Source of the DNA: a bacterium
GTDB taxonomy: Bacteria > Vulcanimicrobiota > Xenobia > Xenobiales > JADMJV01
DNA length: 51,811 bases
Assembly (NCBI GenBank): GCA_030149525.1
Contig: JASBRJ010000230.1
Span: forward strand, 1-51,811
Direction of reading: 5' to 3'
Numbering within the stretch: the first letter of the stretch is position 1; every line of letters begins with the position of its first letter. A program made the position numbers and the translations under genes. Under the pieces are notes generated by a model. The model worked only from the letters and a program-made list of their open reading frames with translations, ran no database searches and was not told where the DNA came from. Shown piece after piece: positions 19,564-51,497 of the stretch.

Positions 19564-19567
19564 GAGG
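19562..19567 (+). promoter_or_regulatory. strong Shine-Dalgarno fixing the TTG start of the large subunit
   Basis: AGGAGG lies eight bases before the TTG at 19576. No ATG or GTG is available near the conserved N-terminus, so this site decides the start. Confidence 0.75.
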
Positions 19568-19575
19568 TAAAACAA

Positions 19576-21192: not shown

Positions 21193-21201
21193 GACGCACT
21201 G

Positions 21202-23335: not shown

Positions 23336-23681
23336 ACGTCAGCAATTCGATTTTCTCTTAATGACGGCTGTGGAGCGCTTCCAAGAGCGTTTGACCCAAC
23401 GGAATCAAGGATACGAAAAGGCGCTTGAAGGTCTGCGGAGCGACCCCAACGGTGAGGGTATCTGGCTGGACCGCTATGTGGAGGCGATTTTCAACGAGTT
23501 TCTCCTGGACAATATTGAGGGGGCTTGTTTTGTCCTGAGGGCTCTGCCGCGAAGACCGCTTCCCCACCTGCAGGCAGGGGTTGTTCAAGACGTTTTGGTG
23601 GCGGCTGCGCGTCACGCTTTTTCGGAGCTCCTCAGGGCCAAGACTGAAGAGTTTTTGGAACAGACTATGAGTTACTCGTAA
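23322..23681 (+). CDS. small helical hydrogenase operon protein, 119 aa
   Basis: TTG 23322 is preceded by GAAGGAGAG. The product is a 119-residue, mostly helical, cysteine-free protein (FDFLLMTAVERFQERLTQRN; YVEAIFNEFLLDNIEGACFV). It overlaps the TPR gene by 14 bases and ends ten bases before the NifU-Rieske gene. I do not recognise it. Its position between a scaffold and the iron-sulfur protein suggests assembly or adaptor function, which is inference. Confidence 0.65.
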   Translation: MEHYERQQFDFLLMTAVERFQERLTQRNQGYEKALEGLRSDPNGEGIWLDRYVEAIFNEFLLDNIEGACFVLRALPRRPLPHLQAGVVQDVLVAAARHAFSELLRAKTEEFLEQTMSYS

Positions 23682-23690
23682 GGAGACCGG

Positions 23691-24554
23691 ATGGAGTTCG
23701 AAAAGTTAGCGGAAGCGGTCGATATTGCGGTTAAAGAGATGGAAAAGCTCGAACCCGAGGCCAAAAAAAAGGCGCGGGAAGTCAAGAAGGCTATCGAGGA
23801 CTTCCATAAACCGGGTATCACCGCCATCGTAAAGAAACTTAAAGACGACCCAAGGGGAAAAGAGCTGCTTTTTGAGTTGGTCGATGAACCCGAAGTCCAC
23901 GCCATATTCGCCCTTCACGGGTTAGTCCGGGTCGACCCCACCACTCACGCTTCTCGTGTTCTTGAAATGGTGAAACCTTACATGCAAAGTCACGGGGGGG
24001 ATGTTGAGCTTGTCAAGGTGGAGGGCTCGGTGGCGTTCGTTCGATTGCTGGGAAGTTGTAACGGATGCTCAATGTCCTCGGTCACGCTCCGCGATGGAGT
24101 GACCGAAGCTTTGGTCAATAACGTGCCCTCTATCGAGAGTGTGGAGGTGGTACCCAACGAGCCCACGGCAGGAGTCATCTCGCTTTCCTCTGTGGGGATG
24201 ATCGAGCGGGGCTGGCTGGAAGGCCCTCCCATCAGCGAAGTTCCTCAAGGTAAAGCCGTCCGAGTGGATGGTGAGAATGGAGACTCCGCCGTAGTGGTCA
24301 ATTTAGAGAACAGCTTCTTTGCCTACCGAAACGCTTGTGCTCATCAGGGATTACCTCTCGATGGCGGCATGGTGGATCCCGAGAACGGTACACTCACCTG
24401 CCCCTGGCACGGATTTAGCTTCGATGCCCGAAGCGGAGAGTGTTTTACCGCCCCTGCCGCTCAGTTGGAGCCGCTTCCTTTGAAGGTGGAAAACGATCGG
24501 GTCTGGATTCGCCTGGGGACCGAAGTCAAGATGAAGGCTTTGAACCAGGCGTGA
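23691..24554 (+). CDS. NifU-domain/Rieske [2Fe-2S] fusion protein of the hydrogenase operon
   Basis: A 287-residue protein. Residues 1-80 are a helical N-terminal part rich in Lys and Glu. Residues about 85-155 are a NifU C-terminal-type domain with the Cys pair GSCNGCSMSS (C123, C126), able to hold an Fe-S cluster. Residues about 175-275 are a Rieske domain with CAHQG (C216, H218) and CPWHGFSFD (C237, H240), the full ligand set for a [2Fe-2S] cluster. Mycobacteria carry related iron-sulfur proteins (HucE, HhyE) in their atmospheric H2 hydrogenase operons, where they are required for H2 oxidation. I infer that this protein takes electrons from the hydrogenase towards the respiratory chain. 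An ATG is preceded by AAGGAG. Confidence 0.88.
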   Translation: MEFEKLAEAVDIAVKEMEKLEPEAKKKAREVKKAIEDFHKPGITAIVKKLKDDPRGKELLFELVDEPEVHAIFALHGLVRVDPTTHASRVLEMVKPYMQSHGGDVELVKVEGSVAFVRLLGSCNGCSMSSVTLRDGVTEALVNNVPSIESVEVVPNEPTAGVISLSSVGMIERGWLEGPPISEVPQGKAVRVDGENGDSAVVVNLENSFFAYRNACAHQGLPLDGGMVDPENGTLTCPWHGFSFDARSGECFTAPAAQLEPLPLKVENDRVWIRLGTEVKMKALNQA

Positions 24555-25654
24555 GCACGATCTTGCAAAGGACCTACAAGCCCTGGCGTTGGGTGGGGGC
24601 AACGGCTCCTGGGGGCTTGGCGTTGCCGGCCGCCCATCCCAGTGCTTCCACCTTGTACGCTCCCCGTGGTGTGCTCATTCGAAATGAGCTTCTCATCGCT
24701 GTGGACTCCGGGAATCACAGGGTCTTGATCTGGCACGGATTGCCCCGAGAGGATCATGCCGAGGCGCAAGTTGTCCTGGGGCAGCCCAACTTTGAGAGTG
24801 AGGGGCCGGGAAAGGGCGGGCCCGAACGTGGGCTCTACCTGCCCACCGGGGTTGGAGTTTATGAGGGCAGACTTTATATAGCCGATGCTTGGCATCATCG
24901 TATTTTGTGGTGGAACGACGTTCCTAAGGAGAATCGCCCGCCCGACGGCGTGCTGGGCCAGCCGGATCTTTCAAGCGTCGAGGTGAATCGAGGACGGGAG
25001 GCGGGGCCTCTCACTCTCTACTGGCCCTACGGAATCTCTTATCAGAACGGCCTTTTCTCTATCGCCGACACAGGAAATCGAAGAGTTTTGATTTGGAACG
25101 GTCTCCCTGAGCCGGAACAGCTTCCCGACGAAGTTCTGGGCCAGGACGATTTCACCACGACTTTGGAGAATCGAGGAGATTTTCCCTCCGCTAAGAGCTT
25201 TCGGTGGCCCCACGGAATCACTCAAGTGGGCTCTCGTTACCTGGTGGCCGACGCGGGCAATCACAGGGTCCTGGGTTGGGAGAAGGAGCGTAACGGAGAT
25301 GCGGATCTGCTGCTGGGACAGCTCGATTTCCAAAGTAATATGGAGTGGCCCTATGGTCCCCAGGGAGCCACCAGACTTCGCTTCCCTTATTCCATAGCGA
25401 GCGCCGGAGAGACTTTGGCCGTCTCGGATACGGCCAACAATCGCGTTTTAGTGTGGGAAGAATTCTCTCAACAGAGTTCCCAGGCTCCTGCGGTCGAAGT
25501 ACTGGGCCAGCACGATTTTGAATCCAATGGGGAGAATCGATGGGACAGAGTTTGTGAAGATTCTCTCTGCTGGCCTTACGGAGTCGACCTTTTTGAAGAC
25601 TATCTGGCCGTAGCGGACTCAGGGAACAACAGGGTGATGATCTGGAAGCGTTGA
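24551..25654 (+). CDS. NHL-repeat six-bladed propeller protein of the hydrogenase operon
   Basis: GTG 24551 overlaps the previous stop (GTGA). The product is about 367 residues with six NHL-like blades. Each carries a D-x-x-N/H-x-R-V/I-L/M-x-W core (SGNHRVLIW, AWHHRILWW, TGNRRVLIW, AGNHRVLGW, TANNRVLVW, SGNNRVMIW), and five are joined by VLGQ-x-x-F/L turns. It has no signal peptide, so the propeller is cytosolic, like the hydrogenase. NHL propellers bind protein or small ligands; here it may be a docking platform for the Rieske protein or the membrane. It overlaps hypF by four bases (TTGA). Confidence 0.85.
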   Translation: MSTILQRTYKPWRWVGATAPGGLALPAAHPSASTLYAPRGVLIRNELLIAVDSGNHRVLIWHGLPREDHAEAQVVLGQPNFESEGPGKGGPERGLYLPTGVGVYEGRLYIADAWHHRILWWNDVPKENRPPDGVLGQPDLSSVEVNRGREAGPLTLYWPYGISYQNGLFSIADTGNRRVLIWNGLPEPEQLPDEVLGQDDFTTTLENRGDFPSAKSFRWPHGITQVGSRYLVADAGNHRVLGWEKERNGDADLLLGQLDFQSNMEWPYGPQGATRLRFPYSIASAGETLAVSDTANNRVLVWEEFSQQSSQAPAVEVLGQHDFESNGENRWDRVCEDSLCWPYGVDLFEDYLAVADSGNNRVMIWKR

Positions 25655-27861
25655 GCACAAGAACGGAATTTTTGGTGGAGGGCCTGGTCCAGGGAGTAGG
25701 CTTCCGACCTTATGTCTATCGACTGGCCCGGGAGTTGAACCTGACCGGCTTTGTGGGAAACGATTCCCGAGGTGTCTTCATTGAAGTGGAAGGGCCGGCC
25801 GAGCGAGTCGCTGAGTTTCATCGGAATCTGATGGAAGAACCACCCCCGGCCGCGGTGATCGATCGCGTTATGCAGAAGGGGATGCCGCTCCAACAGGGGG
25901 AGAATTTCGTCATACTGGAATCCCGGGCGACGCATCGCCCCAAGGTTTGGGTCTCCCCCGATCTCCACTGTTGTGAGCAGTGTCTAGAGGAAGTTCTCGA
26001 TCCTGCCAACCGACGCTATCTCTATCCCTTCACCAACTGTACTCATTGCGGGCCGCGATACACTCTCATAACAGGCCTGCCCTATGACCGACCGCTCACG
26101 ACTATGGCCGAGTTTGAGATGTGTGCGGACTGCCGTCGGGAGTATGAAGACCCTATGGACCGGCGCTTTCATGCCCAACCTATCGCATGTCCTATTTGCG
26201 GTCCCAAGCTTTGCCGGCCGCTGGAGGAGGTTGTAGACGCCCTCACCAGAGGAGAAATCGTCGCGCTCAAGGGTGTTGGAGGCTATCATCTAGTCACCGA
26301 TGCGACCAACGCGCAGTCGGTTTCGCGACTTCGTCGCGGCAAACGTCGATTGACAAAACCCATGGCGGTGATGGTGGCGAATATTGAGGCAGCCCGGCAG
26401 TTGGCTCAGGTAAGCGTTTTTGCTGCAGAACTCTTGCAACAACCGGCGCGGCCTATCGTCCTTCTCCCCACGCTCCATAAGCTACCTCAGGCGGTGGCAC
26501 CTGACATGAAGACTCTGGGCGTGATGTTGCCTTACTCGCCCCTCCACCACTTGCTTTTTGAAGTGGGCAAGTTTCAGGCTCTGGTGATGACCTCGGGCAA
26601 TCTCAGCGGCCAACCCATCGCCTCCACGGAGGCAGAAGCTCGTTTTCAGATGGAGGGCTTGGCGGAGCGATTCGTGGACCACAATCGACCGATCGAGATA
26701 CCGTGTGACGACTCGGTCGTCAGAGAGTTTCGGGGCCAGCCTCTCCCTATCCGTCGAAGTCGAGGCTATGCTCCCTTTCCCCTGAAAGTTTCAAAGCAGT
26801 TGAGGCCGTCCCTGGCGGTGGGGGCTCAGATGAAGTCCACTTTCTGCCTGGGGGCGGGCCGTGATGCCTACCTGAGCCAGCATCTGGGGGATCTGGATAG
26901 CCTGGAGAACCTTGACTACTTCACCCGAGTGGTGGCCCATCTCCAGTCGCTCTATCGCTTGAAGCCCGAATATCTCTGTTGCGATCTTCACCCCGACATG
27001 ATGAGTACCAGATGGGCTGAGAAGCAAGGCCTTCCCCTGGTCAGAGTGCAGCACCATCACGCCCACCTGGCTTCGGCCCTGGCTGAGCACGGCTTGGAAG
27101 AGGCTCTGGGAATCATCCTCGACGGTACCGGTTTGGGTGAGGATGGAACCATATGGGGGGGCGAAATCCTACGGGGCTCTTTTGCAACATATGAACGGGT
27201 AGCGCACCTCAAACCGATTCCTCTGGCCGGAGGCGACCTGGCAGTCAGGGAGCCTTGGAGGTTGGCTTTGGCCCACTTGTGGTCGGCGGGAATGCCCTGG
27301 GATCAGACCCTTGACTCGGTTCAAATGGCGGGAATGAACGAGGAGCGGTTTCGAGTCCAACTCGAACGTGGAATCAACTGCGTGCAGACCTCCAGTGCCG
27401 GTCGTCTGTTCGATGCCGTGGCAGCTCTTTGCGGCCTTCGCCAAACGGTCCAATATGAAGCCGAGGCAGCCATTCTTTTAGAGAATATTGCTGATAAAAA
27501 CGAGCGTGGTTCCTACTACTTCGGAGACCCCTGGGATGCGGGACCCGCCGTGACAGCTATCTTTCGCGACCTCGGAAGGGGGATTTCGCCGGCTCGAATC
27601 TCGATGCGCTTTCATCGTGGCCTGGCTGAACATCTTGCCATCCTGGCCGCGCGATATAGTGATGGGCTGCCGATCGTGCTTTCCGGCGGAGTCTTTCAGA
27701 ACGCTCTTCTCACCGAATTACTTCTCAATGAACTGGGAACCTTAAGACTCCCGGTTTTCATGCATCGTCTCGTACCGCCCAACGACGGAGGATTGGCCTT
27801 AGGACAGCTTATGGTTGGCGCGGCCAGGATGGAAAATGGAGGAATACCAACATGTGCTTAG
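25651..27861 (+). CDS. hypF: HypF, carbamoyltransferase for the cyanide ligands
   Basis: A 736-residue protein with the full HypF layout. It has an acylphosphatase domain (VEGLVQGVGFRPYVYRLA, residues about 8-25), two zinc fingers with CxxC pairs between about 107 and 190 (CEQC, CTHCG, CADC, CPICG), a YrdC-like domain (about 195-380), and a Kae1-like carbamoyltransferase domain with HHHAHLASALAEHGL and DGTGLGEDG. HypF makes the carbamoyl group that HypE turns into cyanide. It starts with TTG overlapping the NHL gene stop. Length and domains are normal and nothing looks broken. Confidence 0.95.
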   Translation: MSTRTEFLVEGLVQGVGFRPYVYRLARELNLTGFVGNDSRGVFIEVEGPAERVAEFHRNLMEEPPPAAVIDRVMQKGMPLQQGENFVILESRATHRPKVWVSPDLHCCEQCLEEVLDPANRRYLYPFTNCTHCGPRYTLITGLPYDRPLTTMAEFEMCADCRREYEDPMDRRFHAQPIACPICGPKLCRPLEEVVDALTRGEIVALKGVGGYHLVTDATNAQSVSRLRRGKRRLTKPMAVMVANIEAARQLAQVSVFAAELLQQPARPIVLLPTLHKLPQAVAPDMKTLGVMLPYSPLHHLLFEVGKFQALVMTSGNLSGQPIASTEAEARFQMEGLAERFVDHNRPIEIPCDDSVVREFRGQPLPIRRSRGYAPFPLKVSKQLRPSLAVGAQMKSTFCLGAGRDAYLSQHLGDLDSLENLDYFTRVVAHLQSLYRLKPEYLCCDLHPDMMSTRWAEKQGLPLVRVQHHHAHLASALAEHGLEEALGIILDGTGLGEDGTIWGGEILRGSFATYERVAHLKPIPLAGGDLAVREPWRLALAHLWSAGMPWDQTLDSVQMAGMNEERFRVQLERGINCVQTSSAGRLFDAVAALCGLRQTVQYEAEAAILLENIADKNERGSYYFGDPWDAGPAVTAIFRDLGRGISPARISMRFHRGLAEHLAILAARYSDGLPIVLSGGVFQNALLTELLLNELGTLRLPVFMHRLVPPNDGGLALGQLMVGAARMENGGIPTCA

Positions 27862-28109
27862 GAGTGCCCGGCAAGGTGCTTGAAGTTTATGAGGCTCACG
27901 GGACCCGAATGGGGCAAGTGGACTTTGGAGGAATCAAAAAGGAGATCTGTCTTGCCTATGTTCCGGAGGTCGTGGCCGGTGATTACACCATCGTTCATGT
28001 CGGCTTCGCTATCACTAAGCTTGATGAAGCTTCGGCTCTAGAAACTCTCAAAATGTTTGAAGATCTGGGCATTCTTGAGGAAGAGTTGGGTGAGGAGGTG
28101 GAGGTATGA
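27852..28109 (+). CDS. hypC: HypC, chaperone for Fe(CN)2CO assembly
   Basis: An 85-residue protein beginning MCLGVPGKV, with the essential Cys2. The strands match HypC ([33 protein letters not shown]). HypC carries the iron centre between HypD and the large subunit. It overlaps hypF by ten bases and hypD by four (ATGA). Confidence 0.95.
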
Positions 28110-29206
28110 AGTATCTCAGCGAGTTCCGGGATCCGGAGCTAGCCCGGAAACTATTCGACGAAATCCGTTCTATGGTCACCCGCCCCTGGGCCATTATGGA
28201 GGTGTGTGGTGGACAGACTCATTCCATCATACGAAACGGGATCGATCAGCTTTTGCCGGAGCAGGTGGAACTGGTTCACGGGCCGGGCTGCCCGGTGTGT
28301 GTGACACCTCTTGAGATGATCGACAAAGCCTTGGAGATTGCCTCGCGTCCGGGAGTCATTTTTTGTTCTTTCGGAGATATGCTGAGGGTTCCGGGGAGTG
28401 AAAAAGATCTGTTTCGAGTCAAGAGCGAAGGAGGCGATGTCAGGGTTGTTTACTCTCCCCTCGATGCCGTGAAGCTGGCCCGGGAAAACCCCGACCGTGA
28501 GGTCGTCTTCTTCGGTATAGGTTTTGAGACCACCGCTCCGGCAAACGCTATGGCCGTTTTTCAAGCCAGACAACAAGGTCTCAAGAACTTCTCTATGCTG
28601 GTCTCTCATGTTCTGGTTCCGCCGGCCATTGCGGCTATTATGGAGGCTCCCGACAACCGGGTGCAGGCGTTTTTGGCAGCAGGACATGTGTGCAGTGTGA
28701 TGGGTTATGAAGAGTATTATCCCCTGTCGGAGAAGTATAAGGTGCCCATCGTGGTGACCGGATTTGAACCGCTCGATCTTCTGCACGGGTTACGACAGGT
28801 TGTCAAGCAGTTGGAAGAGGGACGCCACGAGGTGGAGAACGCTTACCCTCGCGCCGTTCGCCCGGAAGGCAATCTTCCGGCACGCAACATGCTCACCGAG
28901 GTCTTTGAGGTGACCGACCGAGGGTGGCGAGGGATAGGAGAGATTCCCCACAGCGGGTGGCGATTGAAAGACGATTTCGCTGAATTTGATGCGGCTCGCC
29001 GTTATTCGGTGGAGGATATCAAAACGGAAGAGTCCGGTCTATGCAAGAGTGGAGAGGTTTTGCAAGGCAATCTGAAGCCTCACCAGTGTCCGGCCTTCGG
29101 AAAAGAGTGTACGCCGAGAACGCCGCTGGGAGCCACGATGGTCTCTAGTGAAGGAGCGTGTGCTGCCTACTATCAGCATCGACGGTTTGAGGCGGTGTCC
29201 CATTAA
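28106..29206 (+). CDS. hypD: HypD, Fe-S scaffold for Fe(CN)2CO assembly
   Basis: A 366-residue protein with the HypD motifs [11 protein letters not shown] (C34 region), [11 protein letters not shown] and GFETTAP. Near the C-terminus, [19 protein letters not shown] and [10 protein letters not shown] hold the cluster cysteines. HypD binds iron and the diatomic ligands with HypC. It opens with [13 protein letters not shown] and overlaps hypC by four bases. It is complete and normal in size. Confidence 0.95.
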
Positions 29207-30233
29207 CTGGACCTGTCCGCTACCGCTTCGCGATTACCCTCGAATAGTGATGGGACACGGTGGGGGAGGGAAGCTCTCGGAAGAACTGGTGGAACATCTC
29301 TTTCGCCCTGCTTTCGACTCTCAGGGAGAGATGTGCGATGCCGCTGTTTTTGACGTGAATGCCGGGCGTCTGGCCTACTCTACAGACAGTTACGTGGTGC
29401 ATCCCCTGTTCTTCCCAGGCGGCGATATCGGGAAGCTCGCTGTGCACGGGACAGTCAACGATCTCGCCATGATGGGAGCCAAGCCCCTTGTCATGAGCGT
29501 CGGCTTTATTCTGGAAGAAGGTTTCGAACTGGAAGCCCTGGGGCGCATCGCGCAGTCCATGGGAGAGGCTGCGCGTCGTAGTGGAGTGAAGATCGTGACA
29601 GGAGACACCAAGGTCGTGGATCGTGGGCACGGTCACGGAGTCTACATCAATACCTCGGGGATAGGCTGCTTACCCCAGGGGCGAAAACTCGGTCCTGAGC
29701 GTGCTCGAGGGGGCGATGCTATTCTCGTCAGTGGGCCTCTGGGCAACCACGGAATGGCCATTATGAGCCTGAGAGAAGGGTTGGAGTTCGAGTCCACCAT
29801 CGAATCCGACACAGCCTGTTTGAGTCCCCTGGTGGAACTCCTGATGGAGGACCCGGAAAAGGTTCGAGTTCTAAGAGACCCCACCCGAGGAGGACTCGCG
29901 TCCTCTCTTAACGAGATTGCAAAGTCTTCCGGTGTGGGCATGATGCTCGAAGAACGCCATCTCCCGGTGGACCCTGACGTGAAAGGAGCCTGTGAGTTCC
30001 TCGGCTTGGACCCCCTCTACGTAGCCAATGAAGGCAAACTCGTGGCCATCGTTGCCCCTGAGGCCGCCGACGGTTTGCTGGCAAAACTCCACTCGCATCC
30101 TCTGGGTCGGGGTGCCGCACGGATCGGTTTCTGCACGGAGGAGCGCTCGGGGATGGTCGCTCTCAAAACGGCCTTCGGCGGCACTCGGGTAGTGGACACT
30201 CAGGTGGGTGAACAGCTTCCTCGTATTTGCTGA
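29148..30233 (+). CDS. hypE: HypE, carbamoyl dehydratase
   Basis: An approximately 361-residue protein with the nucleotide-binding motif MGHGGGGK, the AIR-synthase-like [35 protein letters not shown], and the C-terminal PRIC whose Cys accepts the carbamoyl group and becomes a thiocyanate. The start is not certain. GTG 29148 overlaps hypD by 59 bases, while TTG 29187 would overlap by only 20 and gives a leader nearer the usual HypE length. Neither has a strong ribosome site. It is the last gene of the operon; no hairpin terminator is visible in the next 90 bases. Confidence 0.92.
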
Positions 30234-41473: not shown

Positions 41474-42178
41474 ATGTTAATCAGACGAAACGTGTCGGTT
41501 CCTACCACCCGCGGCGATTTTGGGGAGTATCACGGTCACTTCTCCACCGAAAAGAGCGCTCACGAGACTCGCATCAGAGGCGACTTCGGAGAGTATCACG
41601 GAGACTACACCATAACCACCAACGGCGATCAGACTCGAGTCAGAGGCGACTTTGGCGAGTATCATGGCGACTACACCGTAACGCTTGGTCAGGGCTCGAC
41701 ACGAGTTCAGGGCGACTTCGGAGAATACCACGGAGATTACACCATCACCGAAGAGGGGAACACGACTCGGGTGCGCGGCGACTTCGGCGAATACCACGGC
41801 GACTACACTCTCACCAAGTCCGGTCATACCACTCGAATTCGGGGTGATTTTGGAGAGTATCACGGAGACTACACCGTCACCGAAGGCGAGAAGGAAACTC
41901 GTGTCCAGGGAGATTTCGGCGAATATCATGGTGACTTCACCGTATTTAAAGACAACGGGCTTATTCGCACGCGAGGCGACTTCGGTGAATACTTCGGCGA
42001 CTTTACCGTCACGGAGAACGGGGATGATATTCGCGTGCGGGGCGACTTCGGTGAATACTTCGGAGATTTCACCTCACCCAAAGGGAGCGAGCCTTTTCTG
42101 TTGGACCCGGTAGCCTTTCATATGCCCACCGAAGCCACGGCGCCCCTAACGATCTTTCGGTTTCCCGAAGACGAGTAG
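41474..42178 (+). CDS. tandem 22-residue repeat protein (RGDFGEYHGDYT units)
   Basis: A 234-residue protein. After 12 residues come nine units of exactly 22 residues, consensus R/Q-GDFGEY-H/F-GD-Y/F-T-x-T-x-x-x-x-x-T-R-V/I. The first half of each unit is almost invariant and the second half varies. Alternating strand-turn-strand patterns suggest a beta-solenoid with one turn per unit. A 30-residue non-repeat tail ends IFRFPEDE. There is no signal peptide, cysteine or membrane helix. I do not recognise the family; MORN repeats are loosely similar (Gly and aromatic pairs) but differ in period and order. Synonymous codons differ strongly between units. The ribosome site is weak (AAGG), so the start codon may be used with a very short leader. 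Confidence 0.8.
   Translation: MLIRRNVSVPTTRGDFGEYHGHFSTEKSAHETRIRGDFGEYHGDYTITTNGDQTRVRGDFGEYHGDYTVTLGQGSTRVQGDFGEYHGDYTITEEGNTTRVRGDFGEYHGDYTLTKSGHTTRIRGDFGEYHGDYTVTEGEKETRVQGDFGEYHGDFTVFKDNGLIRTRGDFGEYFGDFTVTENGDDIRVRGDFGEYFGDFTSPKGSEPFLLDPVAFHMPTEATAPLTIFRFPEDE
41510..42103 (+). repeat. nine in-frame 66-bp tandem repeats encoding 22-residue units
   Basis: The period is exactly 66 bases from the Arg codon at 41510 through nine units, with no insertion or deletion. At DNA level the units differ at many third positions (for example GATTTTGGG, GACTTCGGA, GACTTTGGC for Asp-Phe-Gly), while the encoded GDFGEY core is kept in all nine. That points to old duplication under protein-level constraint, not recent slippage. 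Confidence 0.92.
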
Positions 42179-42214: not shown

Positions 42215-43255
42215 TCACGAGCTCGGACCCCATCTCCATATCTTGCGCCACAATCTGCCGAGGAGGTCTCGAAAACCTTGGAGTTCAAGTCTTCTCACCA
42301 GGTATCGCTTTAGACCCCATTCACTTTCGCGATAGTGGAGCCAGTAGTCGAATAGGGGAAAAAATGCAAACCCAATTTCTCCCACCAGGTCGTGACGATG
42401 TCTGGTGACCGTGCTCCAGGCCCGGTCAAACAGAGACGCCGGATGCTGTGGTCGTAAGCAAGACCATCCCAGGTCGCGCAAGGGGAGGTTGTGGAGGCGT
42501 TGCAGGAGGTGCCGCTCGGTGAGCAATCGTTCGATCTCTTCAAAATCTATCTCCGTGCGATGACGTCGCAAGAAGATCTCTATGTCGTAGAGATAACGGG
42601 CCAGATGATGAGGTTCTCGGTGGGCCACAGCCACAAGATGAAACAGTTGGTGAGTGAGAGACAGACTGCTCATCTCGTGCCCCTCCAAGTGAAACGCTGA
42701 GCGCGATTCCCAGAAAACAACATCACAGCCGTTCCAGCGTGCCTCTCTTAGCAGAAACCAGTGCAGATCGAGCTTGGCACCATCACGCTTGAACTCCATG
42801 GCGTTCTCGAGACGTTCCTCGGGTTCGACCCAGTCCGCCCAGGGCTGCCATCCTTCTTCGAGTAAAACTTGTTGGGCTTGAGAAGCTTGTTCAAATCGCA
42901 CCAGCAGATCGAAATCGTGGGCAGGGCGTACACCAAGACTGTTGTGGGTCGATCGGTTCAGGACAACTCCCTTGAGCACGATCACGTCGATGCCCCGAGC
43001 TTCCAGAACGGTGACCACTTGACAACACGCGATCTCCAGCATCCGATTGTGGGAGAGCGCCTTCTCGCACTCCTCAGCCACGATCGGGTGCTCCACCCCC
43101 AGGTTCTGTGCAACTTGAGGAAGTAACCTCTTGGCTCTGTAGCTGAAGTCCTCGAGAGGTAGCGCGCTGAGAAGTTCTTCCCAACGACGCAGCCCCTCCT
43201 GGGGCGGGAGAGTGGCACAATGAAAGAGCTCAATTTGCAAATCAAATTCCTGCAT
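42215..43255 (-). CDS. NTP_transf_5-like nucleotidyltransferase
   Basis: A 346-residue protein with the nucleotidyltransferase-fold pattern of the NTP_transf_5 family. VIVLKGVVLNRSTHNSLGVR is followed by HDFDLLV, whose two Asp residues are the expected metal ligands. A helical C-terminal half carries HQLFHLVAVAHREPHHLARYLYDIEIF. Members occur in peptide-modification and exopolysaccharide clusters, often beside HprK-like kinases. They may transfer a nucleotide to a metabolite or peptide, but few are characterised. It is the last gene of the seven-gene minus-strand operon, three bases after the GT4 gene. No clear ribosome site is visible. Confidence 0.8.
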   Translation of the reverse strand: MQEFDLQIELFHCATLPPQEGLRRWEELLSALPLEDFSYRAKRLLPQVAQNLGVEHPIVAEECEKALSHNRMLEIACCQVVTVLEARGIDVIVLKGVVLNRSTHNSLGVRPAHDFDLLVRFEQASQAQQVLLEEGWQPWADWVEPEERLENAMEFKRDGAKLDLHWFLLREARWNGCDVVFWESRSAFHLEGHEMSSLSLTHQLFHLVAVAHREPHHLARYLYDIEIFLRRHRTEIDFEEIERLLTERHLLQRLHNLPLRDLGWSCLRPQHPASLFDRAWSTVTRHRHDLVGEIGFAFFPLFDYWLHYRESEWGLKRYLVRRLELQGFRDLLGRLWRKIWRWGPSS

Positions 43256-43258
43256 GGG

Positions 43259-44437
43259 TTAGGAGATGCTCAACTCAGCTTTCCATTTTCTCACAAGGGA
43301 GTCCCAGTCCATGGGTTCTTTGGCTAGAAAATCCGGCCCCTTGTGGGCTAAAGCTTCTCGCAATTCTTCATCCTCGCTCAATCGAACAAGGCTGTCTGCC
43401 ATCTCCTCGGTGGACTCAACCAAAAGCCCGGCACCACTCTCCGACACCAACTCTTGCAGGCCTCCAACACGGGCGGCCACCACAGGCACTCTGCAAGCTA
43501 GAGCCTCAATGGTCTGCAATCCCAAGCCTTCCGTTCGAGAAGGAACTAAAATCACGTCGCTGCTCCGCAGAGTTTCGGCCACAACCCGAGACGAAACACT
43601 GCCCTCAAAATGAATTGGCGTTCCGTGGCAAGATTGTTCCAATTCCGAGCGCATGCGACCGTCACCAAGCACCGTGGCCTTTATGGAACAGTTCTGCTCC
43701 AGGGCAAGTTTCACCGCCTTCACAAAACGGTCCGGACCCTTGTCCGGCTCTAGTCGTCCCACAAAAATTACCCGCAAGGACCCCTCGGATTTTGTGCGGC
43801 CTCCGGGATGAAAAAGTTCAGGGTCATAAGCTCCCCGCATCAGTTGGGTGTGCGCGTCTTTCAAACCACATCGGTGGCGAAGATGCTCTCTCATAAATCT
43901 GGAAGGCACGGCCACTCGGTCAACCCTCTGGAGTCGTTCGGCCAACTCTTGCTCCAAGGGCGTGTCCATCACTCGGTAGGTGAACGGCCCTCCGTGACAC
44001 ATGACGATCCGTCGGACACCCACGATCTCCGACAGAATCCAGGCCCAGGGAAATTCTCGATGGGCTACGATCGCTTGAGGCCGACACTGGTTTAGAACAC
44101 TGCGGGTTCGCTCTACTAACGCCTCCCAGGAAGCTCTCCCATCCTTAAGGTTGATGGCCTCTTCAAACCCCCAATGGCAAGCCAGATCACCGATCGAGCC
44201 CGGGTCTCCGTAGCCGAGTGTATGCTGGGCGATCCCACTCTCGCTCAGCCCGCGGATTACATGATAGGCGACATTGGATGCTCCCACTCCCGGGCGTTCC
44301 AAAATAGTTAGGATACCACCGGTAGACGAGGCAGATGCTTTTCGTCTAGCGCCCCCCCAGTCGTCAGTCAAATTCGGGTTGGTGCGTACCTGTTTTCTGA
44401 ACGCTTCATACTCGGCTAGACAGGCTTGGCTCAGCAT
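43259..44437 (-). CDS. glycosyltransferase family 4 (GT-B fold)
   Basis: A 392-residue protein. The C-terminal half has the GT4 pattern: RVIFVGRLEPDKGPDRFVKA, VLGDGRMRSELE and VPSRTEGLGLQTIEALACRVPVVA, whose E-x7-E holds the nucleotide-sugar. The N-terminal acceptor domain is less conserved (TILERPGVGASNVAYHVIRG). It transfers a sugar from an activated donor to an unknown acceptor. It overlaps the methyltransferase gene by seven bases. Cytosolic, with no membrane helix. Confidence 0.88.
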   Translation of the reverse strand: MLSQACLAEYEAFRKQVRTNPNLTDDWGGARRKASASSTGGILTILERPGVGASNVAYHVIRGLSESGIAQHTLGYGDPGSIGDLACHWGFEEAINLKDGRASWEALVERTRSVLNQCRPQAIVAHREFPWAWILSEIVGVRRIVMCHGGPFTYRVMDTPLEQELAERLQRVDRVAVPSRFMREHLRHRCGLKDAHTQLMRGAYDPELFHPGGRTKSEGSLRVIFVGRLEPDKGPDRFVKAVKLALEQNCSIKATVLGDGRMRSELEQSCHGTPIHFEGSVSSRVVAETLRSSDVILVPSRTEGLGLQTIEALACRVPVVAARVGGLQELVSESGAGLLVESTEEMADSLVRLSEDEELREALAHKGPDFLAKEPMDWDSLVRKWKAELSIS

Positions 44438-45471
44438 TGGGCGACCTTTCTTGCGCTGGTAACACTGAAGTAGCCTGAGGAAGCGGTGGTCTCAACTTGC
44501 TGGAAGCCAACTCCCTCCAAGATCGCTTTCAACTCCTTGAATGTATGCTGCTTTCCTACCGGTGACCACACCAACATATTCACGCTTGCCGCGGCTGCCA
44601 CCAAAGGTCCGTTCTTCTCTTCATCCAGCAGCATCTCGTGAATCATAATTCGACCACCCGGAGGCAGTTGGGCGAAGCTCTTTTGGGAAAGCAAACGACA
44701 CTGCTCCAGGGAATGGTTGTGGAACACCTCCGAGTAGAAGTGAAGATCGGCCTGGGGAAGGTCCACCTCGGCCCAGAAATCACCACGGTGTGTTCGAACT
44801 CTGTCCTGCAGCCCAGCCTTATTTATGAAAATCTGGGCTGCCGGACACACAGGTTCGCGCTCCAGCACCACGGCACTCAGGTCGGGCCATTTCCGAACCG
44901 CCTCCAGGGAGTAGACGCCTGAGCCTCCTCCGATATCCAACATGACCCGATGTTCAGAGAGGTCGACTCGGGTTGGCCAAACTCGCGCTGGAGCCTGTCC
45001 TCTGGCGTGCATAGCGGCCGTGAAAGCTTCCGCCCAACCTTCTTCTTCGGAATGCGGGGTGGTCTGAAAGATACGGTCAAAAGATGGCGTCCCGCTGAGT
45101 ATCGCGTCTTTGATACTATCGTAGCTAAAAAGGGCCCGTCGTTTGAGTAACATATCCCAGTAGGCGCCAAAGCTGTAGGGAGAGTCGTTTAGAAAGAACA
45201 TGCGTCCGAGAGAGCACAATTCGAATCGCCCCTCATAGTGGTGTAACAATCCCGCTGCGGCGCACATCGATAGCATTCCCTCGGCGGCCCGGGGCTCAAG
45301 TTTGAAACGCTCACAGACTTCGGTGAGGTTTCGTGCTTGCTGACCAAGAAATTCGTAGACCCCGATCTCATGAGCTACCAACACAACGGGCATCACCAAG
45401 CTTGCGGCCAAAAGATCGCGCAGTGAGGTTTCGGCTGTGGCAAGTTCTTCCGGGGTCGAAGCCTGGTTCAT
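44431..45471 (-). CDS. SAM-dependent O-methyltransferase with dimerisation domain
   Basis: A 346-residue protein. Residues about 15-100 form a winged-helix dimerisation domain (VAHEIGVYEFLGQQARNLTE). Residues about 165-340 are the class I methyltransferase, with MLDIGGGSGVYSLEAV for SAM, YSEVFHNHSLEQC holding the catalytic His, and MIHEMLLDEEKNGPL. The layout is that of O-methyltransferases of natural-product pathways (AcetylSerotonin/caffeate type). It overlaps both neighbours by 4-7 bases within the operon. The acceptor is unknown. Confidence 0.85.
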   Translation of the reverse strand: MNQASTPEELATAETSLRDLLAASLVMPVVLVAHEIGVYEFLGQQARNLTEVCERFKLEPRAAEGMLSMCAAAGLLHHYEGRFELCSLGRMFFLNDSPYSFGAYWDMLLKRRALFSYDSIKDAILSGTPSFDRIFQTTPHSEEEGWAEAFTAAMHARGQAPARVWPTRVDLSEHRVMLDIGGGSGVYSLEAVRKWPDLSAVVLEREPVCPAAQIFINKAGLQDRVRTHRGDFWAEVDLPQADLHFYSEVFHNHSLEQCRLLSQKSFAQLPPGGRIMIHEMLLDEEKNGPLVAAAASVNMLVWSPVGKQHTFKELKAILEGVGFQQVETTASSGYFSVTSARKVAQC

Positions 45472-46415
45472 TCATCATCCTCTCGCCGACCGAGAAAGTA
45501 ATCCTCCATGACCGATTTCCATTCAGGCTGAGGCTTGCGAAATTTCCATACGCCTTGATTTGTGGTCTCAATATCGGTGTCACAGTCTATTCCCAACTCG
45601 ACGAATAGAGCGTGTCGCTCAAAGTACTTGCGATTTGCGAGCTCTCCGTGGTTGAGATGAAAAAGGGCTCGGTTCAGGTAGCCAACCTTACCGTGCACTT
45701 TCTCAAATGTCCTGCGAGCCCAGGTAGAATAACTAGACCGAGCGACGTAGTTGAACAGACCCAAATCTGCTCGTTTATGAAGCCAAGTTTGAGAGAGACC
45801 GACCGTACCCAAAAGCCAGAAGAAATCACCTGAGCCCATGATGCAGCGGTCAAACAGCCCAACCTCACTCATGAGCTCTCGCCTGGCAGCCCACGCCATA
45901 CCCGGCGCACCCGCGTGAGATTCGACAAAGGAAGCCTCGCCGCGCTCGGCCCAATCTCGGGCAGAGGAGAGCTTGGGATCGGTCAAGTGGAGTTCTGTCT
46001 CGCCTGGCGGTAGTTTTGAAGAGACAAGAGTCTCAGTCATCTCGCGGTTGATATAGTGCACTTCTGAAAATAACTGAACTACGGGATTTTCTTCGAGGAT
46101 TCTTATGATCTCATCCGACACATCCGCCTTTGTATAGAAGATGTCGCAGTCTAGCCAGGCCACAAATTCTGCCTCGGAGGGCAGTCGAGAAAATCCTATA
46201 TTGAGCAAGCGCTCTTTCTGCCACATCATGTCGCCACCGCTGAGTTGAACCAGGATGTCGGCGTCGTCGGGAGTTAAACTAAATTTGCCGGTGGGATGCC
46301 ATTCCACTGTGAGGAGCGGCATTTTCAACCAACGACGAAAAGCTCGGTAGTTACGCAGTCGGCTCTTCCACCCCAAGGGATTGAAATAGCTCGTCACAGC
46401 CCAAAGCCGGCTCAA
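45468..46415 (-). CDS. GT-A-fold glycosyltransferase with DCD motif
   Basis: I set the start at TTG 46415, which overlaps the stop of the upstream gene (TTGA) and has GAGGGA ahead of it. A longer ATG reading would run through that gene. The product has 315 residues and opens MSRLWAVTSYFNPLGWKSRL. FVAWLDCDIFYT holds the metal-binding D-x-D. DMMWQKERLLNIGFSRLP is also typical of a sugar-transferase group found in EPS and natural-product loci. Donor and acceptor are unknown. Confidence 0.78.
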   Translation of the reverse strand: MSRLWAVTSYFNPLGWKSRLRNYRAFRRWLKMPLLTVEWHPTGKFSLTPDDADILVQLSGGDMMWQKERLLNIGFSRLPSEAEFVAWLDCDIFYTKADVSDEIIRILEENPVVQLFSEVHYINREMTETLVSSKLPPGETELHLTDPKLSSARDWAERGEASFVESHAGAPGMAWAARRELMSEVGLFDRCIMGSGDFFWLLGTVGLSQTWLHKRADLGLFNYVARSSYSTWARRTFEKVHGKVGYLNRALFHLNHGELANRKYFERHALFVELGIDCDTDIETTNQGVWKFRKPQPEWKSVMEDYFLGRREDDE

Positions 46416-47248
46416 AGGGTTCCCTCGTTGAGAAAAGCTGTCAGACGACTCTTGGGGAAATCTACTCCCTTGGCACCCAGAGTGGAGTGAAAGTAAAGGC
46501 CTTTGACCACAGCCACGGCTTTCCAAAAGTCAAGATCGCTCACGGTGCGCTGAGAGAATCGCTCGTAATAATTGAGAAAGCCCTTCCACTGTTCCGGGGG
46601 GAGAGGCCAGCGATACCAACTTAAGCCCACATCGTAGTCGAGAAAGTCCAGATCCAAGTTCTCGTTGTCCACACTCCAGACTTCTCCGTCGACATCCTGC
46701 ACCAGGTTTTCTCCGCAAAAGTCGCCATGAATCAAACCGCGTTGTCCTCGCCACGCACTCGAATTCTCGAACACCGATTCTAGCGCCCTCAACTGGGACT
46801 GCTCCAAGATGGCCCTATGGCGGAGCCAGTCCAGTCGTTCCTGGACCAGTTCAGGACTTATGCCCGAACCGGGCGGAGAGTCATCAACTCTGCAGCTATG
46901 AAGTCGAGCCAAAAGTGAGGCGGCTTTTCGCAGGGTATCGTCCTCGGAGGGAAAGTGGTCCAGAGTATGGCCCTGGATCCAATCCTCCACCATCACTCGA
47001 CCTCTCCGAGCCAACATCGGCGACAAGCGCACACCGGCGGTAGAGTTCCTCATACGACACAGTCGTTCAACCCTCCACTCTTCGCTCAGGCACCGAACTT
47101 TGACAACGGAGTTGGCGTTTGTGGTCACTCGATGAGCCCTTCGCCCCGAACGATGTTGAGCGAAAGTGGTTATGAGCTCCGAGGTGAGCGGCGTGAAACC
47201 CAACTGGCGGCAGGTGTTCACTATCTCCTCCGACATCGACAGGTTCAC
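46412..47248 (-). CDS. APH/choline-kinase-like phosphotransferase
   Basis: GTG 47248 overlaps the kinase stop before it (GTGA); an ATG 12 bases later is also possible. The product has 278 residues. The catalytic loop is GLIHGDFCGENLV (HGDFCGEN 174-181), and the metal Asp is in SVDNENLDLDFLDYDVG. These are the signatures of the aminoglycoside phosphotransferase superfamily, which phosphorylates small hydroxyl substrates such as choline, homoserine or sugars. In this operon it probably modifies a pathway intermediate rather than an antibiotic. The upstream leader seen in frame is the shadow of the neighbouring gene. Confidence 0.82.
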   Translation of the reverse strand: MNLSMSEEIVNTCRQLGFTPLTSELITTFAQHRSGRRAHRVTTNANSVVKVRCLSEEWRVERLCRMRNSTAGVRLSPMLARRGRVMVEDWIQGHTLDHFPSEDDTLRKAASLLARLHSCRVDDSPPGSGISPELVQERLDWLRHRAILEQSQLRALESVFENSSAWRGQRGLIHGDFCGENLVQDVDGEVWSVDNENLDLDFLDYDVGLSWYRWPLPPEQWKGFLNYYERFSQRTVSDLDFWKAVAVVKGLYFHSTLGAKGVDFPKSRLTAFLNEGTL

Positions 47249-48381
47249 CCTGAGTGCGCTCCCGAGAGGCTGATCCTTGCGAGGAGCTGGAGTGCTACCT
47301 CTGTTGAGGCAAACGCCTGGGTGCCCAGGGCTACCTCCCAGCAAGGAATCTTGCCCACCCAACTCTCAATTTCTCCCATTTCTGCGTTTCCGGAAGGTTC
47401 GCCGAAGATAGTCTTAGCGGGACGATTCCCGGGCAGACCATAGAGACACTCTTCTATCCTTAGCTTAGCTTCAACGGGAGGTATGATTCTGGTACGAAAC
47501 GATTCGTCATCTTGTTTCACAGGAAAAAGCAGCCCTCCCAAAGGAGCCGATGCGAGCGGTCGACTTCTTAAATTCCGTGAAAAATCTGCCGGATTGAGAA
47601 AGACTTCTTCCGCCGGACCGGGCGGCGGAAGGGGGAGAATAAGAGTCGCTCTCTCGTCATTGCTGTGAGTGATAAAGCGCGTGGCAGTGTCGAGACCTAA
47701 TTTGAGTTGAGGGATGAATTCCTGGGTCCCTTCACGCACTCGAATCACCGTAGGTACACCTCGGACGACGATCTCGTCAAGGTCCGACCGCTCAAGCATA
47801 ACCCAGTCGTTGGATAAGAATTCGGCTTCCGTGGAGTTCAAGAGATAGGACAGCAAAGTTGTTTTCCCAGCCCGCTTTGGACCAAGTATGAGAAACGCTC
47901 GCCCAGCAAAAACCAATGCCGAAGAGTGGAGGGCCAACATCGTTTGACAGGTGCGCTGCCAGGCCAATTCCCTTAAGGTTCTGACCAAGGAAACCCTGGC
48001 AGCGACCGAACCCGCACGGGTGAGAAGAGTGATCTCATCGTCAAAGACCTGGTAAAAACACATCCTTATCTCATCGAACACCGTGGTCCGGCCGGAGGTC
48101 GTCCAGCCTGGCTTCACGATCAACTGACTGTCGAGTGAGAAGCAGTTTCGAGGAGAGGTGGAGGAAACTTCCATCTCTGTTGTTGCCCGCGCGTAGGCCT
48201 CGTCGTCATGCCAGAGCCTAATATGTCTTCCCCGGCAGTGGTCGCTAAAGAGGTACCAGGGAGTGAGAAAATCTTCCAGCCACAGGCGGTCGGTAGGATC
48301 GTTGCCGGAGAGGCGAAAATGACAGGAGCCCCACTCGACACCAGCCTCCCAAACATCCTCACTGACGCTGCTGCAGCTCAA
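47245..48381 (-). CDS. HprK-like P-loop kinase
   Basis: A 378-residue protein starting with TTG, which overlaps the preceding stop (TTGA) and follows a GAGTGAGG ribosome site. LHSSALVFAGRAFLILGPKRAGKTTLL (within residues 151-177) carries the HprK-type pattern of a His-containing strand followed by a Walker A loop (GPKRAGKT, 167-174). SNDWVMLERSDL is like the second metal motif. Bacterial HPr kinase proper acts on phosphocarrier protein; these shorter relatives occur in lasso-peptide and EPS clusters and can phosphorylate peptides or lipids. Here no HPr or peptide precursor is seen, so the substrate is unknown. Confidence 0.75.
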   Translation of the reverse strand: MSCSSVSEDVWEAGVEWGSCHFRLSGNDPTDRLWLEDFLTPWYLFSDHCRGRHIRLWHDDEAYARATTEMEVSSTSPRNCFSLDSQLIVKPGWTTSGRTTVFDEIRMCFYQVFDDEITLLTRAGSVAARVSLVRTLRELAWQRTCQTMLALHSSALVFAGRAFLILGPKRAGKTTLLSYLLNSTEAEFLSNDWVMLERSDLDEIVVRGVPTVIRVREGTQEFIPQLKLGLDTATRFITHSNDERATLILPLPPPGPAEEVFLNPADFSRNLRSRPLASAPLGGLLFPVKQDDESFRTRIIPPVEAKLRIEECLYGLPGNRPAKTIFGEPSGNAEMGEIESWVGKIPCWEVALGTQAFASTEVALQLLARISLSGAHSG

Positions 48382-51300
48382 CGGCAGACCTCACTCCTGC
48401 TGCCTTCCAGCCAACGACTTACGTCGCCTTGAGAGAGTCTTGGGGGCGGCCCCAGCTCAAGCTGCTTCAACTCTTGGCGAAACTTCTGAGCCTCCACCCG
48501 CTCCGGTGCCAACGGCTTCGTCCAGGGGCGAGCCAAGAGAGGACCAACGGTCTGCTCCAGTCTCTCTCGAAACAAACTGTGGTCAACTCTCCGAACGGGT
48601 AGGCAACGGCCGACCCAATCGATGAGGTGGTCCAGGGAAACGTCTTGGCCGACGCCCCAGTTGCTGAGATGAAAGACCCTCAACTCTTGACTCGGCTGGT
48701 GGAGGCAAAGAGCAGCTAGAAAACCGGCCACAAAATCCACCGGAAGACCGTCGAAATGACGGTGTTCGGCATCATCTCGATAGAACGTATAGGGCGCCGA
48801 ACTGCTTTCTAGAATCCCCCGAAGCAGCGTCTGAAACATGTCCTGGTGATTGAGCTCCAAAGGATAGCTTCGATGAGGCAAGAGAAGACACGAGCGAGAA
48901 ATCGAAATGGGTAGACCTGTTTGTTGATGGAATTTCTCTAATAAGACCTCTCCCGCCCACTTGCTCGTAACATAGCCGTGAGCGTAGCCATCTGAGACTA
49001 TCTCTCGCTGCGGCCATAGTCGAGAGGCAGGTTCTTCTCCAAAATCTTTGCGGCCGAGCCCGGCAGTGGAAACAAAATGAAACGCTTTGGCTCTGCCCTC
49101 CAGAGCAAATTGGGCCAGAGTAGCGGTGCCTTCTACATTCGATTCAAAGAGGTCTGAGTAGGCAAGTGCGTGATTGACCAGGGCGCCTGCGTGAAGGATA
49201 GCCTCTACCTCTTGTGTGAGCCGAGAGTACAGAGTCTCTGTCAGTCCTAAACGGGGCGATTGAAAATCCCCGGCCACCACTTCCACCCGTCCGAGTGCGC
49301 TAAACCGAAGATAAGCCTGACGGGCTTTCCCGTCGAGAAAAGAGCGCTCAACGCGCGAGCAAGCTTCTTTGTCGTTGCGGGCCCGAACGAGGCAAACCAA
49401 TCGAGCACCGCGCTCCAATAATTCAAGAGTCAGAGCTCTTCCCAAAAAGCCGGTGGCCCCCGTTATGAGTACGGTTTGGACTGTCTTTTCCGCCGCCGTC
49501 TTGGATGATTTGAAAACTTGGGGGCTCAAGAAAAGCGCTGGTCTAATATCCTGGTGCCGGATCTGGGCAGCTCCTACCGGATGAATCGTTTCATACAATC
49601 GTTTTTGTGAACTCGAGACGGTTTGCTCCAGCTCCTCAATGGTAAGCTCTAAAAGCTTCCCTGCGGGCAGCTCCCATCCGGCATTCTCTTTGGCCAGGAC
49701 GCTGAGCCTGATGGCGTCCAAGGAATCACCACCGAGGCTTCTCAACGTGCTGTCGCTCGTCACTTCGCTCATCTCGAGTTCGAGGACAAAAGCCAGCAAG
49801 GCGCGCAATCCGTCTGGTCGTTGGGACCATTTTTTCAGCCGGTTTATCTGGCTTTTTTCGCGATCTAAATAGAGTTGCTCAAGTCGCTCGCCGTAGTAAG
49901 CCTTCAAGTTCGCGCGACGAAGCTTTCCAGTATGACTCAGCATCCCGTTGGCCTCGCTAAACGGGGCGTCTGCGAGTAACAGATCCGAGGGAACCTGGTG
50001 GGGCTGGAGTTGGAACTCCCGAGCCACTCGTCGCAGCTCCTCGGCGAGAATCGCTTGGCTCATTTCGCCCTTCAAAGAGTGGGGAACCACAACCGCCAGA
50101 AGACGCGATTTCTGAGCGTTTCCATAGAGAAAAATCTGATGAATTTTTGCACTCGCTGCCACAAAGAGAGCTTCCAGTCGAGACACGTTGACAAATTTGC
50201 CAAGACCTAGTCGAAGCAAGCTACTTGCCCGTTCGAGCCATACGATCTTCCCTTTCTCAGTTTCTTCCACAATATCACCGGTTAGGAAGTAGCCTTCTTC
50301 GTCTCGCAGTGCCTGGTGAGATGTGGTCTTCCCGTAGTACCCGGTGGTCCCGCGATGGGTTTTTATGGCCAACTCTCCTCTGGGGAAGGGTCGATCCGAC
50401 CGGGTGAAGCCTAAATCAGGGCGGTCGATCAGCTTGTAAGAAAGCCAAGGGTAAAGCCGACCGTTGCAGGCGATCGGTCCAACCTCGGTGGAGCCGTAGA
50501 GATCGTTGACGGGAACTTGCAGACACTGTTCTAGGAAAACAATGATCTGCGGGTCGGTGGGAGCGGAACCGATCTTGACCTGAGAAAGTCGGCCTCCCAT
50601 GCTCTTCCTCATCCTAAGAGCCAGTCGCTTTCCGAGTGGAGTCTCTAACATTTTTACCGGGTCTGCAGCCTCTTCTCCACGAGCCGTGAATTCCATCTGA
50701 AAGCGTTGCCACAAAAGTTGGCTCAAAGATGGTAAGAGGAAAAGCTCCGTGGGCCGCGCTCTGGGCAGGTCGTCGAAAAGCGAAGACAGACCATCCTCGG
50801 CCGGCATGTAGGTGAGGCCTCCCGACATAAAAACTTTATAGAGAAGTGATCTTCCAGCCATATGGCAGAAGGGCAAATAGCCGAGTGTCGTGGGTGAAGG
50901 AGCTTTGGATTCAAACGCCTTACCGAGAGCCTCTTTCAGGGTGCTCTGAGACAACTTTACACCTTTGGGCTGCCCACTGTTGCCGGAAGTATAAACAACG
51001 CTATATGTTTGCTCATCGTCAACGGGAAGAATCCAGGACGGGACCCCGCTCGAATTCTTCAACGCCACCTCGTCTCGAAGGGGCTCTAACTCAGTCTCAT
51101 TGATGCAGTCCAGGGCGAGCGCCGCGCAGTCATCTGGAATTATGCCTTCAAAACGTAACAGTTGCTCGGACTCACTCACCAGGCAGCGCGGGTGAGTTTC
51201 TGAGAGGATGTGTCGCAATTCGCCGGACGTCACACCTTTTGAGATCGGCACCGAGATGCAGCCCAGGTAGAGGCACGCTACGTCCGCAACCACCCATCCC

Positions 51301-51497
51301 ACCCTGCAGGAACCGCAGAGCAACACGCGGTCTCCACGGTTGACAAGCCGGCCCAATCGGCTTGAGAAGTCGACTACACGATTCCAGAAATTTCGAAAGG
51401 AAATCTCTTTGTACTCTGAGTCCACCGTCCGCTCGGCAAAGCAGGGCCGTTGGTCGTAAGCTCGGCAGGCCTGGTGCAGCAGTTCAATGGCGTGCAC
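48378..51497 (-). CDS. carboxylic acid reductase-like A-T-R enzyme
   Basis: A 1039-residue three-domain enzyme starting with GTG. The adenylation domain spans about 1-545: YTSGNSGQPKG (169-179), YGSTEVGPIAC (334-344), YFLTGDIVE (403-411), and a catalytic-Lys region HTGKLRRANLKAYYGERLEQLY close to that of carboxylic acid reductases. The carrier domain has LGGDSLDA with phosphopantetheine Ser592. The reductase domain has TGATGFLGRALTLELLERG (679-697), Y842 and K846 (YVTSKWAGEVLL), and HFDGLPVDFVAGF. Such enzymes activate a carboxylate with ATP, load it on the carrier and reduce it with NADPH to an aldehyde. It is slightly shorter than typical CARs (about 1170). No phosphopantetheinyl transferase is in the window. 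It is the first gene of a seven-gene operon. Confidence 0.9.
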   Translation of the reverse strand: MHAIELLHQACRAYDQRPCFAERTVDSEYKEISFRNFWNRVVDFSSRLGRLVNRGDRVLLCGSCRVGWVVADVACLYLGCISVPISKGVTSGELRHILSETHPRCLVSESEQLLRFEGIIPDDCAALALDCINETELEPLRDEVALKNSSGVPSWILPVDDEQTYSVVYTSGNSGQPKGVKLSQSTLKEALGKAFESKAPSPTTLGYLPFCHMAGRSLLYKVFMSGGLTYMPAEDGLSSLFDDLPRARPTELFLLPSLSQLLWQRFQMEFTARGEEAADPVKMLETPLGKRLALRMRKSMGGRLSQVKIGSAPTDPQIIVFLEQCLQVPVNDLYGSTEVGPIACNGRLYPWLSYKLIDRPDLGFTRSDRPFPRGELAIKTHRGTTGYYGKTTSHQALRDEEGYFLTGDIVEETEKGKIVWLERASSLLRLGLGKFVNVSRLEALFVAASAKIHQIFLYGNAQKSRLLAVVVPHSLKGEMSQAILAEELRRVAREFQLQPHQVPSDLLLADAPFSEANGMLSHTGKLRRANLKAYYGERLEQLYLDREKSQINRLKKWSQRPDGLRALLAFVLELEMSEVTSDSTLRSLGGDSLDAIRLSVLAKENAGWELPAGKLLELTIEELEQTVSSSQKRLYETIHPVGAAQIRHQDIRPALFLSPQVFKSSKTAAEKTVQTVLITGATGFLGRALTLELLERGARLVCLVRARNDKEACSRVERSFLDGKARQAYLRFSALGRVEVVAGDFQSPRLGLTETLYSRLTQEVEAILHAGALVNHALAYSDLFESNVEGTATLAQFALEGRAKAFHFVSTAGLGRKDFGEEPASRLWPQREIVSDGYAHGYVTSKWAGEVLLEKFHQQTGLPISISRSCLLLPHRSYPLELNHQDMFQTLLRGILESSSAPYTFYRDDAEHRHFDGLPVDFVAGFLAALCLHQPSQELRVFHLSNWGVGQDVSLDHLIDWVGRCLPVRRVDHSLFRERLEQTVGPLLARPWTKPLAPERVEAQKFRQELKQLELGPPPRLSQGDVSRWLEGSRSEVCR

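Follow-up and report, generated by a model that had tools for sequence, protein, structure and literature searches.

A translationally coupled seven-gene operon headed by a carboxylic acid reductase-like enzyme in a bacterium of the class Xenobia

Gene content and organization of the operon

We analyzed a 51,811-nt stretch of DNA (hereafter the window), which is an entire contig (C157; JASBRJ010000230.1) of an 8.27-Mb Xenobia assembly (phylum Vulcanimicrobiota; GCA_030149525.1), with a focus on an operon that starts with a gene for a carboxylic acid reductase (CAR)-type enzyme. In the list of open reading frames (ORFs) of the window, seven intact ORFs form one run on the minus strand at 42215-51497, given here in the direction of transcription:

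48378-51497 (-), CAR-type enzyme of adenylation-thiolation-reductase (A-T-R) order, 1039 aa, GTG start; assigned by Pfam, NCBIfam, PDB matches and motifs
47245-48381 (-), HprK-like kinase, 378 aa, TTG start; weak NCBIfam matches and residues common to seven homologues
46412-47248 (-), APH/choline-kinase-type phosphotransferase, GTG start overlapping the stop of the HprK-like gene; Pfam APH
45468-46415 (-), GT-A-fold glycosyltransferase of a phage-rich family, 315 aa, TTG start; homologues and AlphaFold model
44431-45471 (-), class I, type-2 O-methyltransferase, 346 aa; Pfam Methyltransf_2 and motifs
43259-44437 (-), GT4-family glycosyltransferase, 392 aa; Pfam Glycos_transf_1 and motif
42215-43255 (-), NTP_transf_5 protein, 346 aa, final gene of the operon; Pfam PF14907

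The original prediction had described seven same-strand genes that overlap or nearly touch, and direct reading bore this out at all six junctions. The first four are 4-base overlaps (CAR/HprK, TTGA; HprK/APH, GTGA; APH/GT-A, TTGA; GT-A/O-methyltransferase, ATGA), followed by a 7-base overlap between the O-methyltransferase and GT4 genes (ATGCTGA) and a 3-base gap between the GT4 and NTP_transf_5 genes (TAA-CCC-ATG). The predicted gene families also held in Pfam, NCBIfam, homologue and model tests, the HprK-like protein having sub-threshold family matches only. The operon thus has a definite gene content, order and coupling, its products belong to recognizable families, and most of their catalytic motifs are in place. 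The GC content of the seven genes (0.52-0.56) and that of their third codon positions (GC3, 0.57-0.63) are like those of the neighbours, so the operon is not an obvious contaminant. A promoter and terminator scan and an Rfam search gave no result above chance.

A divergent CAR-type enzyme heads the operon

CARs are mainly known as stand-alone enzymes, chiefly of Actinobacteria, and are used in biocatalysis. In the first gene product of the operon, the AMP-binding (residues 9-381), PP-binding (563-623) and NAD_binding_4 (678-924) domains all scored above the Pfam cut-offs, which gives the A-T-R order in one chain. The protein matched the PDB CAR 5msc with an E value of 6e-164 and carries the motifs YTSG169, HMAGR212, YGSTE334, NGMLSHTGK with the A10 lysine of the A domain, LGGDS588 with the carrier serine, TGATGFLGR679, and YVTSK842 with the reductase Tyr/Lys, so that the key residues of all three domains are kept. 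It shares the A-T-R order, all core motifs and an alignment along nearly the whole chain with the CARs of PDB entries 5msc, 5mso and 5msp, but differs from them in a shorter N terminus, different neighbouring genes and a sub-cut-off NCBIfam score (689 bits against 1300 bits for the curated equivalog carboxyl_red, NF041592). Judged from its sequence, it appears to be a CAR-like, divergent protein and not the NCBIfam equivalog.

Among the matches listed from a scan of GTDB contigs, which could have overlooked a closer relative, the nearest CAR is ~34% identical to the operon enzyme. In a tree the enzyme groups with a Minicystis sequence; both are long branches, and therefore we claim only that it lies outside the actinobacterial CARs. 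It aligns full length to both PDB and GTDB CARs, and the genome's own A-T-R protein of nonribosomal peptide synthetase (NRPS) type, on contig C105, gave no blastp match to it at a limit of 1e-30. The operon enzyme is thus nearer to the CARs than to A-T-R enzymes of NRPS type. The C105 protein (L247:6848-9751) has 967 aa, and its gene is followed almost directly by an ORF that is trigger-factor-like by sequence. On contig C313, a wax ester synthase/diacylglycerol acyltransferase (DGAT) and a domain of fatty acyl reductase type are fused in a single ORF (L248:5556-8690). Within the sister genus the one similar protein, a candidate orthologue from genome G002, was rejected; it is a 630-aa A-domain protein of 44% identity with neither a T nor an R domain and with none of the partner genes.

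The original prediction had also proposed looking for a phosphopantetheinyl transferase (PPTase) next to the operon. A stand-alone Sfp-type PPTase, recognized by length and motifs, is indeed present in the genome, but it lies away from the operon at C32:5229-5918, where it is the sole ACPS-family match of the genome.

Glycosyltransferases, O-methyltransferase and APH-type kinase

Three of the tailoring enzymes were assigned by Pfam matches above cut-off. The O-methyltransferase (Methyltransf_2, E 1e-28) has the S-adenosylmethionine-binding motif DIGGGSG179 and a histidine in VFHNHS249, and its nearest PDB relatives are 5i2h and DSYB. The GT4 protein (Glycos_transf_1, E 4e-30) has the E-x7-E motif EGLGLQTIE303, and the APH-type protein (APH, E 7e-13) has the catalytic loop HGDFCGEN.

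The product of 45468-46415 matched no Pfam or PHROGs family, and its assignment as a GT-A enzyme comes from its viral homologues and an AlphaFold model that matches GT-A enzymes. Homologues were found in at least 80 viral contigs, in Xanthomonas phage XaC1 and on Cupriavidus and Burkholderia plasmids, and Lys67-Glu68 and the DxD residues Asp89 and Asp91 are invariant across 41 sequences of the family. The model has a mean predicted local distance difference test (pLDDT) score of 90.8, and its best PDB matches are GT-A enzymes; Foldseek gave TM-scores below 0.5 by query length, which define the fold class and contain no functional match.

The HprK-like kinase and the NTP_transf_5 protein

The NTP_transf_5 protein matched PF14907 with an E value of 3e-28 (99.7 bits against a 31.2-bit cut-off) and has a DxD motif in HDFDLL; Gly96, Arg110, Asp114, Asp116 and Asp163 are invariant across eight homologues, and a paralogue on contig C368 is 39-40% identical. 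The family matches of the HprK-like protein in NCBIfam were all sub-threshold (HprK_rel_B, E 8e-6; FomB, E 1.4e-5). It has the P-loop GPKRAGKTT167, and His152, Gly172-Lys173 and Asp192 are invariant, being common to seven homologues. No relatives were detected by a pattern scan of GTDB genome contigs, within the limits of its sensitivity, or in other genomes of the phylum at 1e-8. A profile built from eight HprK-like proteins matched 40 of 149 phylum genomes, and NTP_transf_5 was found in 37 of the 149. An HprK match lies within 6 kb in 33 of the 54 counted NTP_transf_5 loci (27 genomes), and therefore HprK plus NTP_transf_5 is a recurrent module of the phylum.

A genome-wide Pfam search gave five PqqD matches, none of them on C157. 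PqqD accompanies NTP_transf_5 on contigs C215, C1 and C368 of the same genome, as expected for clusters of ribosomally synthesized and post-translationally modified peptides (RiPPs). The most informative new fact is this contrast within one genome, in which the module occurs once without PqqD, beside a CAR. The C215 locus (L010:1726-10695) is RiPP-like, with a radical SAM protein, an HprK-like kinase, PqqD and NTP_transf_5, and adjoins a 1300-aa low-complexity Ser/Ala/Asp repeat protein.

Reviews of pseudomycoidin biosynthesis report that a serine is phosphorylated by the kinase PsmK and that PsmN, a homologue of nucleotidyltransferases, brings about the attachment of one or two hexoses to the phosphate; genuine nucleotidyl transfer with a subsequent host glycosyltransferase step has not been excluded (PMC9266682; PMC8498205). 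The original prediction had listed a kinase and a nucleotidyltransferase as separate activities. Both families stand, but in light of the pseudomycoidin reports we favour reading the pair as a single known module in which phosphorylation is followed by glycosylation or nucleotidylation of the phosphate. By their published descriptions, PsmK/PsmN and the paeninodin-type lasso kinases likewise combine an HprK-like kinase with a nucleotidyltransferase-family protein. In contrast to those systems, the operon contains no lasso precursor, PqqD/RiPP recognition element, protease or cyclase, and the second kinase Asp is uncertain.

The module could nevertheless serve a RiPP-type pathway, in which the HprK-like kinase would phosphorylate and the NTP_transf_5 protein glycosylate a peptide while the A-T-R enzyme reduces a carboxylate of this peptide or provides an aldehyde to cap it. 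In reviews, those HprK and NTP_transf_5 enzymes that have been studied by experiment act on lasso peptides (PMC9266682; PMC8498205), and PqqD stands at three further NTP_transf_5 loci in the same genome. However, no PqqD, transglutaminase-type protease or asparagine synthetase was found in the operon on the visible contig, and the coupled genes leave no space for a precursor between them. Because precursor and PqqD are absent, we consider a RiPP pathway quite unlikely. Of the original prediction, the coupled, CAR-headed biosynthetic operon outside the lasso and RiPP machinery is supported, and the reduced, methylated, glycosylated and phosphorylated metabolite remains putative.

Parallels in other phyla come from plasmid collections that were searched with single queries, and they serve as examples, not as a survey. 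Distant HprK homologues, only 20-23% identical to the operon protein, adjoin NTP_transf_5 and lie near APH on plasmids of Streptomyces sp. NBC_00445 and Amycolatopsis sp. AA4. These clusters resemble the operon in having HprK, NTP_transf_5 and APH within a few kilobases and no annotated PqqD, but 7-deazaguanine and sugar-phosphate genes replace the CAR, O-methyltransferase and glycosyltransferases. The two plasmid loci (L125 and L129) carry matching 7-deazaguanine clusters with HprK, NTP_transf_5, an AAA kinase, an inositol monophosphatase and APH. On another Streptomyces plasmid an HprK homologue lies near GT4 and APH genes, and in Rhizobium rhizoryzae one adjoins a phosphoenolpyruvate (PEP) mutase. 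The plasmid and R. rhizoryzae loci therefore indicate that HprK-like kinases occur in small-molecule-type, non-RiPP clusters.

Proposed pathway and alternative explanations

We propose, as about an even chance, that the operon is an orphan biosynthetic cluster for a small molecule or lipid in which a pseudomycoidin-type pair is used together with a CAR. Its substrate, order of steps and product we infer as follows. The Sfp-type PPTase encoded on C32 would prime the A-T-R enzyme, which would activate an acid with ATP and release an aldehyde at the expense of NAD(P)H. A hydroxyl would be capped by the methyltransferase, the GT4 and GT-A enzymes would add one or two sugars, and the APH kinase would possibly make a sugar phosphate. 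The HprK-like kinase would phosphorylate a hydroxyl, and the NTP_transf_5 protein would then place a sugar or nucleotide on that phosphate, as in PsmK/PsmN but on a non-peptide substrate. A common function of the seven genes is suggested by their translational coupling and by enzyme logic.

Several observations weigh against this proposal. Position 191 of the HprK-like protein is Asn, in contrast to Asp in the paralogues on C368 and C215; this Asn may stand in for one residue of the lasso-kinase motif His-Lys-Asp-Asp, and kinase activity is therefore not assured. The fold model of this protein is too poor for use (pLDDT 32), and no substrate prediction was obtained for the A domain of the CAR. 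Genes for a transporter, a regulator or a PPTase are absent from the operon, as are further enzymes for aldehyde processing. Upstream of the CAR gene, 314 bases remain before the contig end, which falls inside a divergent lipoprotein-like ORF, and genes farther out are therefore not visible. In addition, full-length CAR and HprK matches were confined to the window's own genome among 148 phylum genomes (own included), and this single-genome occurrence therefore provides no evolutionary test of the seven genes acting together.

The original prediction had named a lack of co-conservation across related genomes as a result that would refute it, and the seven genes are indeed not co-conserved. Near 80 CARs among the GTDB matches listed, tblastn and profile searches found no HprK, NTP_transf_5 or GT-A partner, the one match obtained being at chance level (E 0.006). 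The GT-A protein had no match in 57 relatives, and no paper uniting these elements was found among those searched. All the enzyme types are known, and their combination was found nowhere else that was searched. The operon is an intact, coupled singleton and not a conserved pathway, a status that does not make it unreal.

This distribution would also fit a set of mobile tailoring genes that came together recently or by chance and share no product. The family of the GT-A gene is carried by phages and plasmids, full-length CAR and HprK occur in one phylum genome only, and the sister genomes share no synteny at the locus except for a 3-deoxy-D-arabino-heptulosonate 7-phosphate (DAHP) synthase, so that an empty-site comparison with them is impossible. 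Such an assembly is hard to square, however, with coupling at all six junctions, with a GC and GC3 composition like that of the neighbours, and with intact reading frames and preserved motifs, and we regard it as rather improbable.

A cell-surface glycoconjugate or glycolipid is another possible product. The glycosyltransferases and the phosphate-modifying pair would then build a phosphorylated, methylated sugar chain, for which the CAR would supply a fatty aldehyde or alcohol anchor. Two glycosyltransferases and kinases do share the operon, HprK and NTP_transf_5 also adjoin GT2-like genes on C368, and the reductase-wax ester synthase fusion on C313 indicates that fatty-alcohol chemistry is present in the genome. 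Among the relatives, NTP_transf_5 has a single distant homologue (31% identity, genome G004), which has other neighbours, GDP-mannose dehydratase-like and asparagine-synthase-like genes being close by. However, no flippase, polymerase, priming transferase or export gene was recognized in or beside the operon, and we regard such a product as somewhat unlikely.

Returning to the orphan cluster for a small molecule or lipid, a bolder version, which we put forward as doubtful, is that HprK and NTP_transf_5, so far shown to act on ribosomal peptides, would phosphoglycosylate or nucleotidylate a CAR-made, non-peptide compound derived from an aldehyde or alcohol, which would represent a new class of phospho-decorated natural products. 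A divergent CAR that is embedded, in another phylum, in an operon dedicated to tailoring could show which substrate and product such an enzyme has in nature. The operon would further serve to ask whether the HprK/NTP_transf_5 module known from work on lasso peptides is a general device for hydroxyl-phosphate tailoring, and such a role would bear on the function of the large family of 'uncharacterised nucleotidyltransferases'.

Other features of the window

An aromatic-acid pathway that would include the nearby DAHP synthase-prephenate dehydratase and a flavin adenine dinucleotide (FAD) hydroxylase was considered and rejected as part of the cluster. The DAHP synthase is shared by the six genomes of the family (53-55% identity), and other genes lie between it and the operon, which is why it was left out.

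Downstream, the operon is flanked by a convergent gene at 41474-42178 (+) for a repeat protein with about ten RGDFGEYHGDYT-type repeats, the DNA unit being 66 bases. Farther away, at 18529-30233 (+), the window encodes the small and large subunits of a NiFe hydrogenase, HypF, HypD and an aminoimidazole ribonucleotide (AIR)-synthase-like protein of HypE type.

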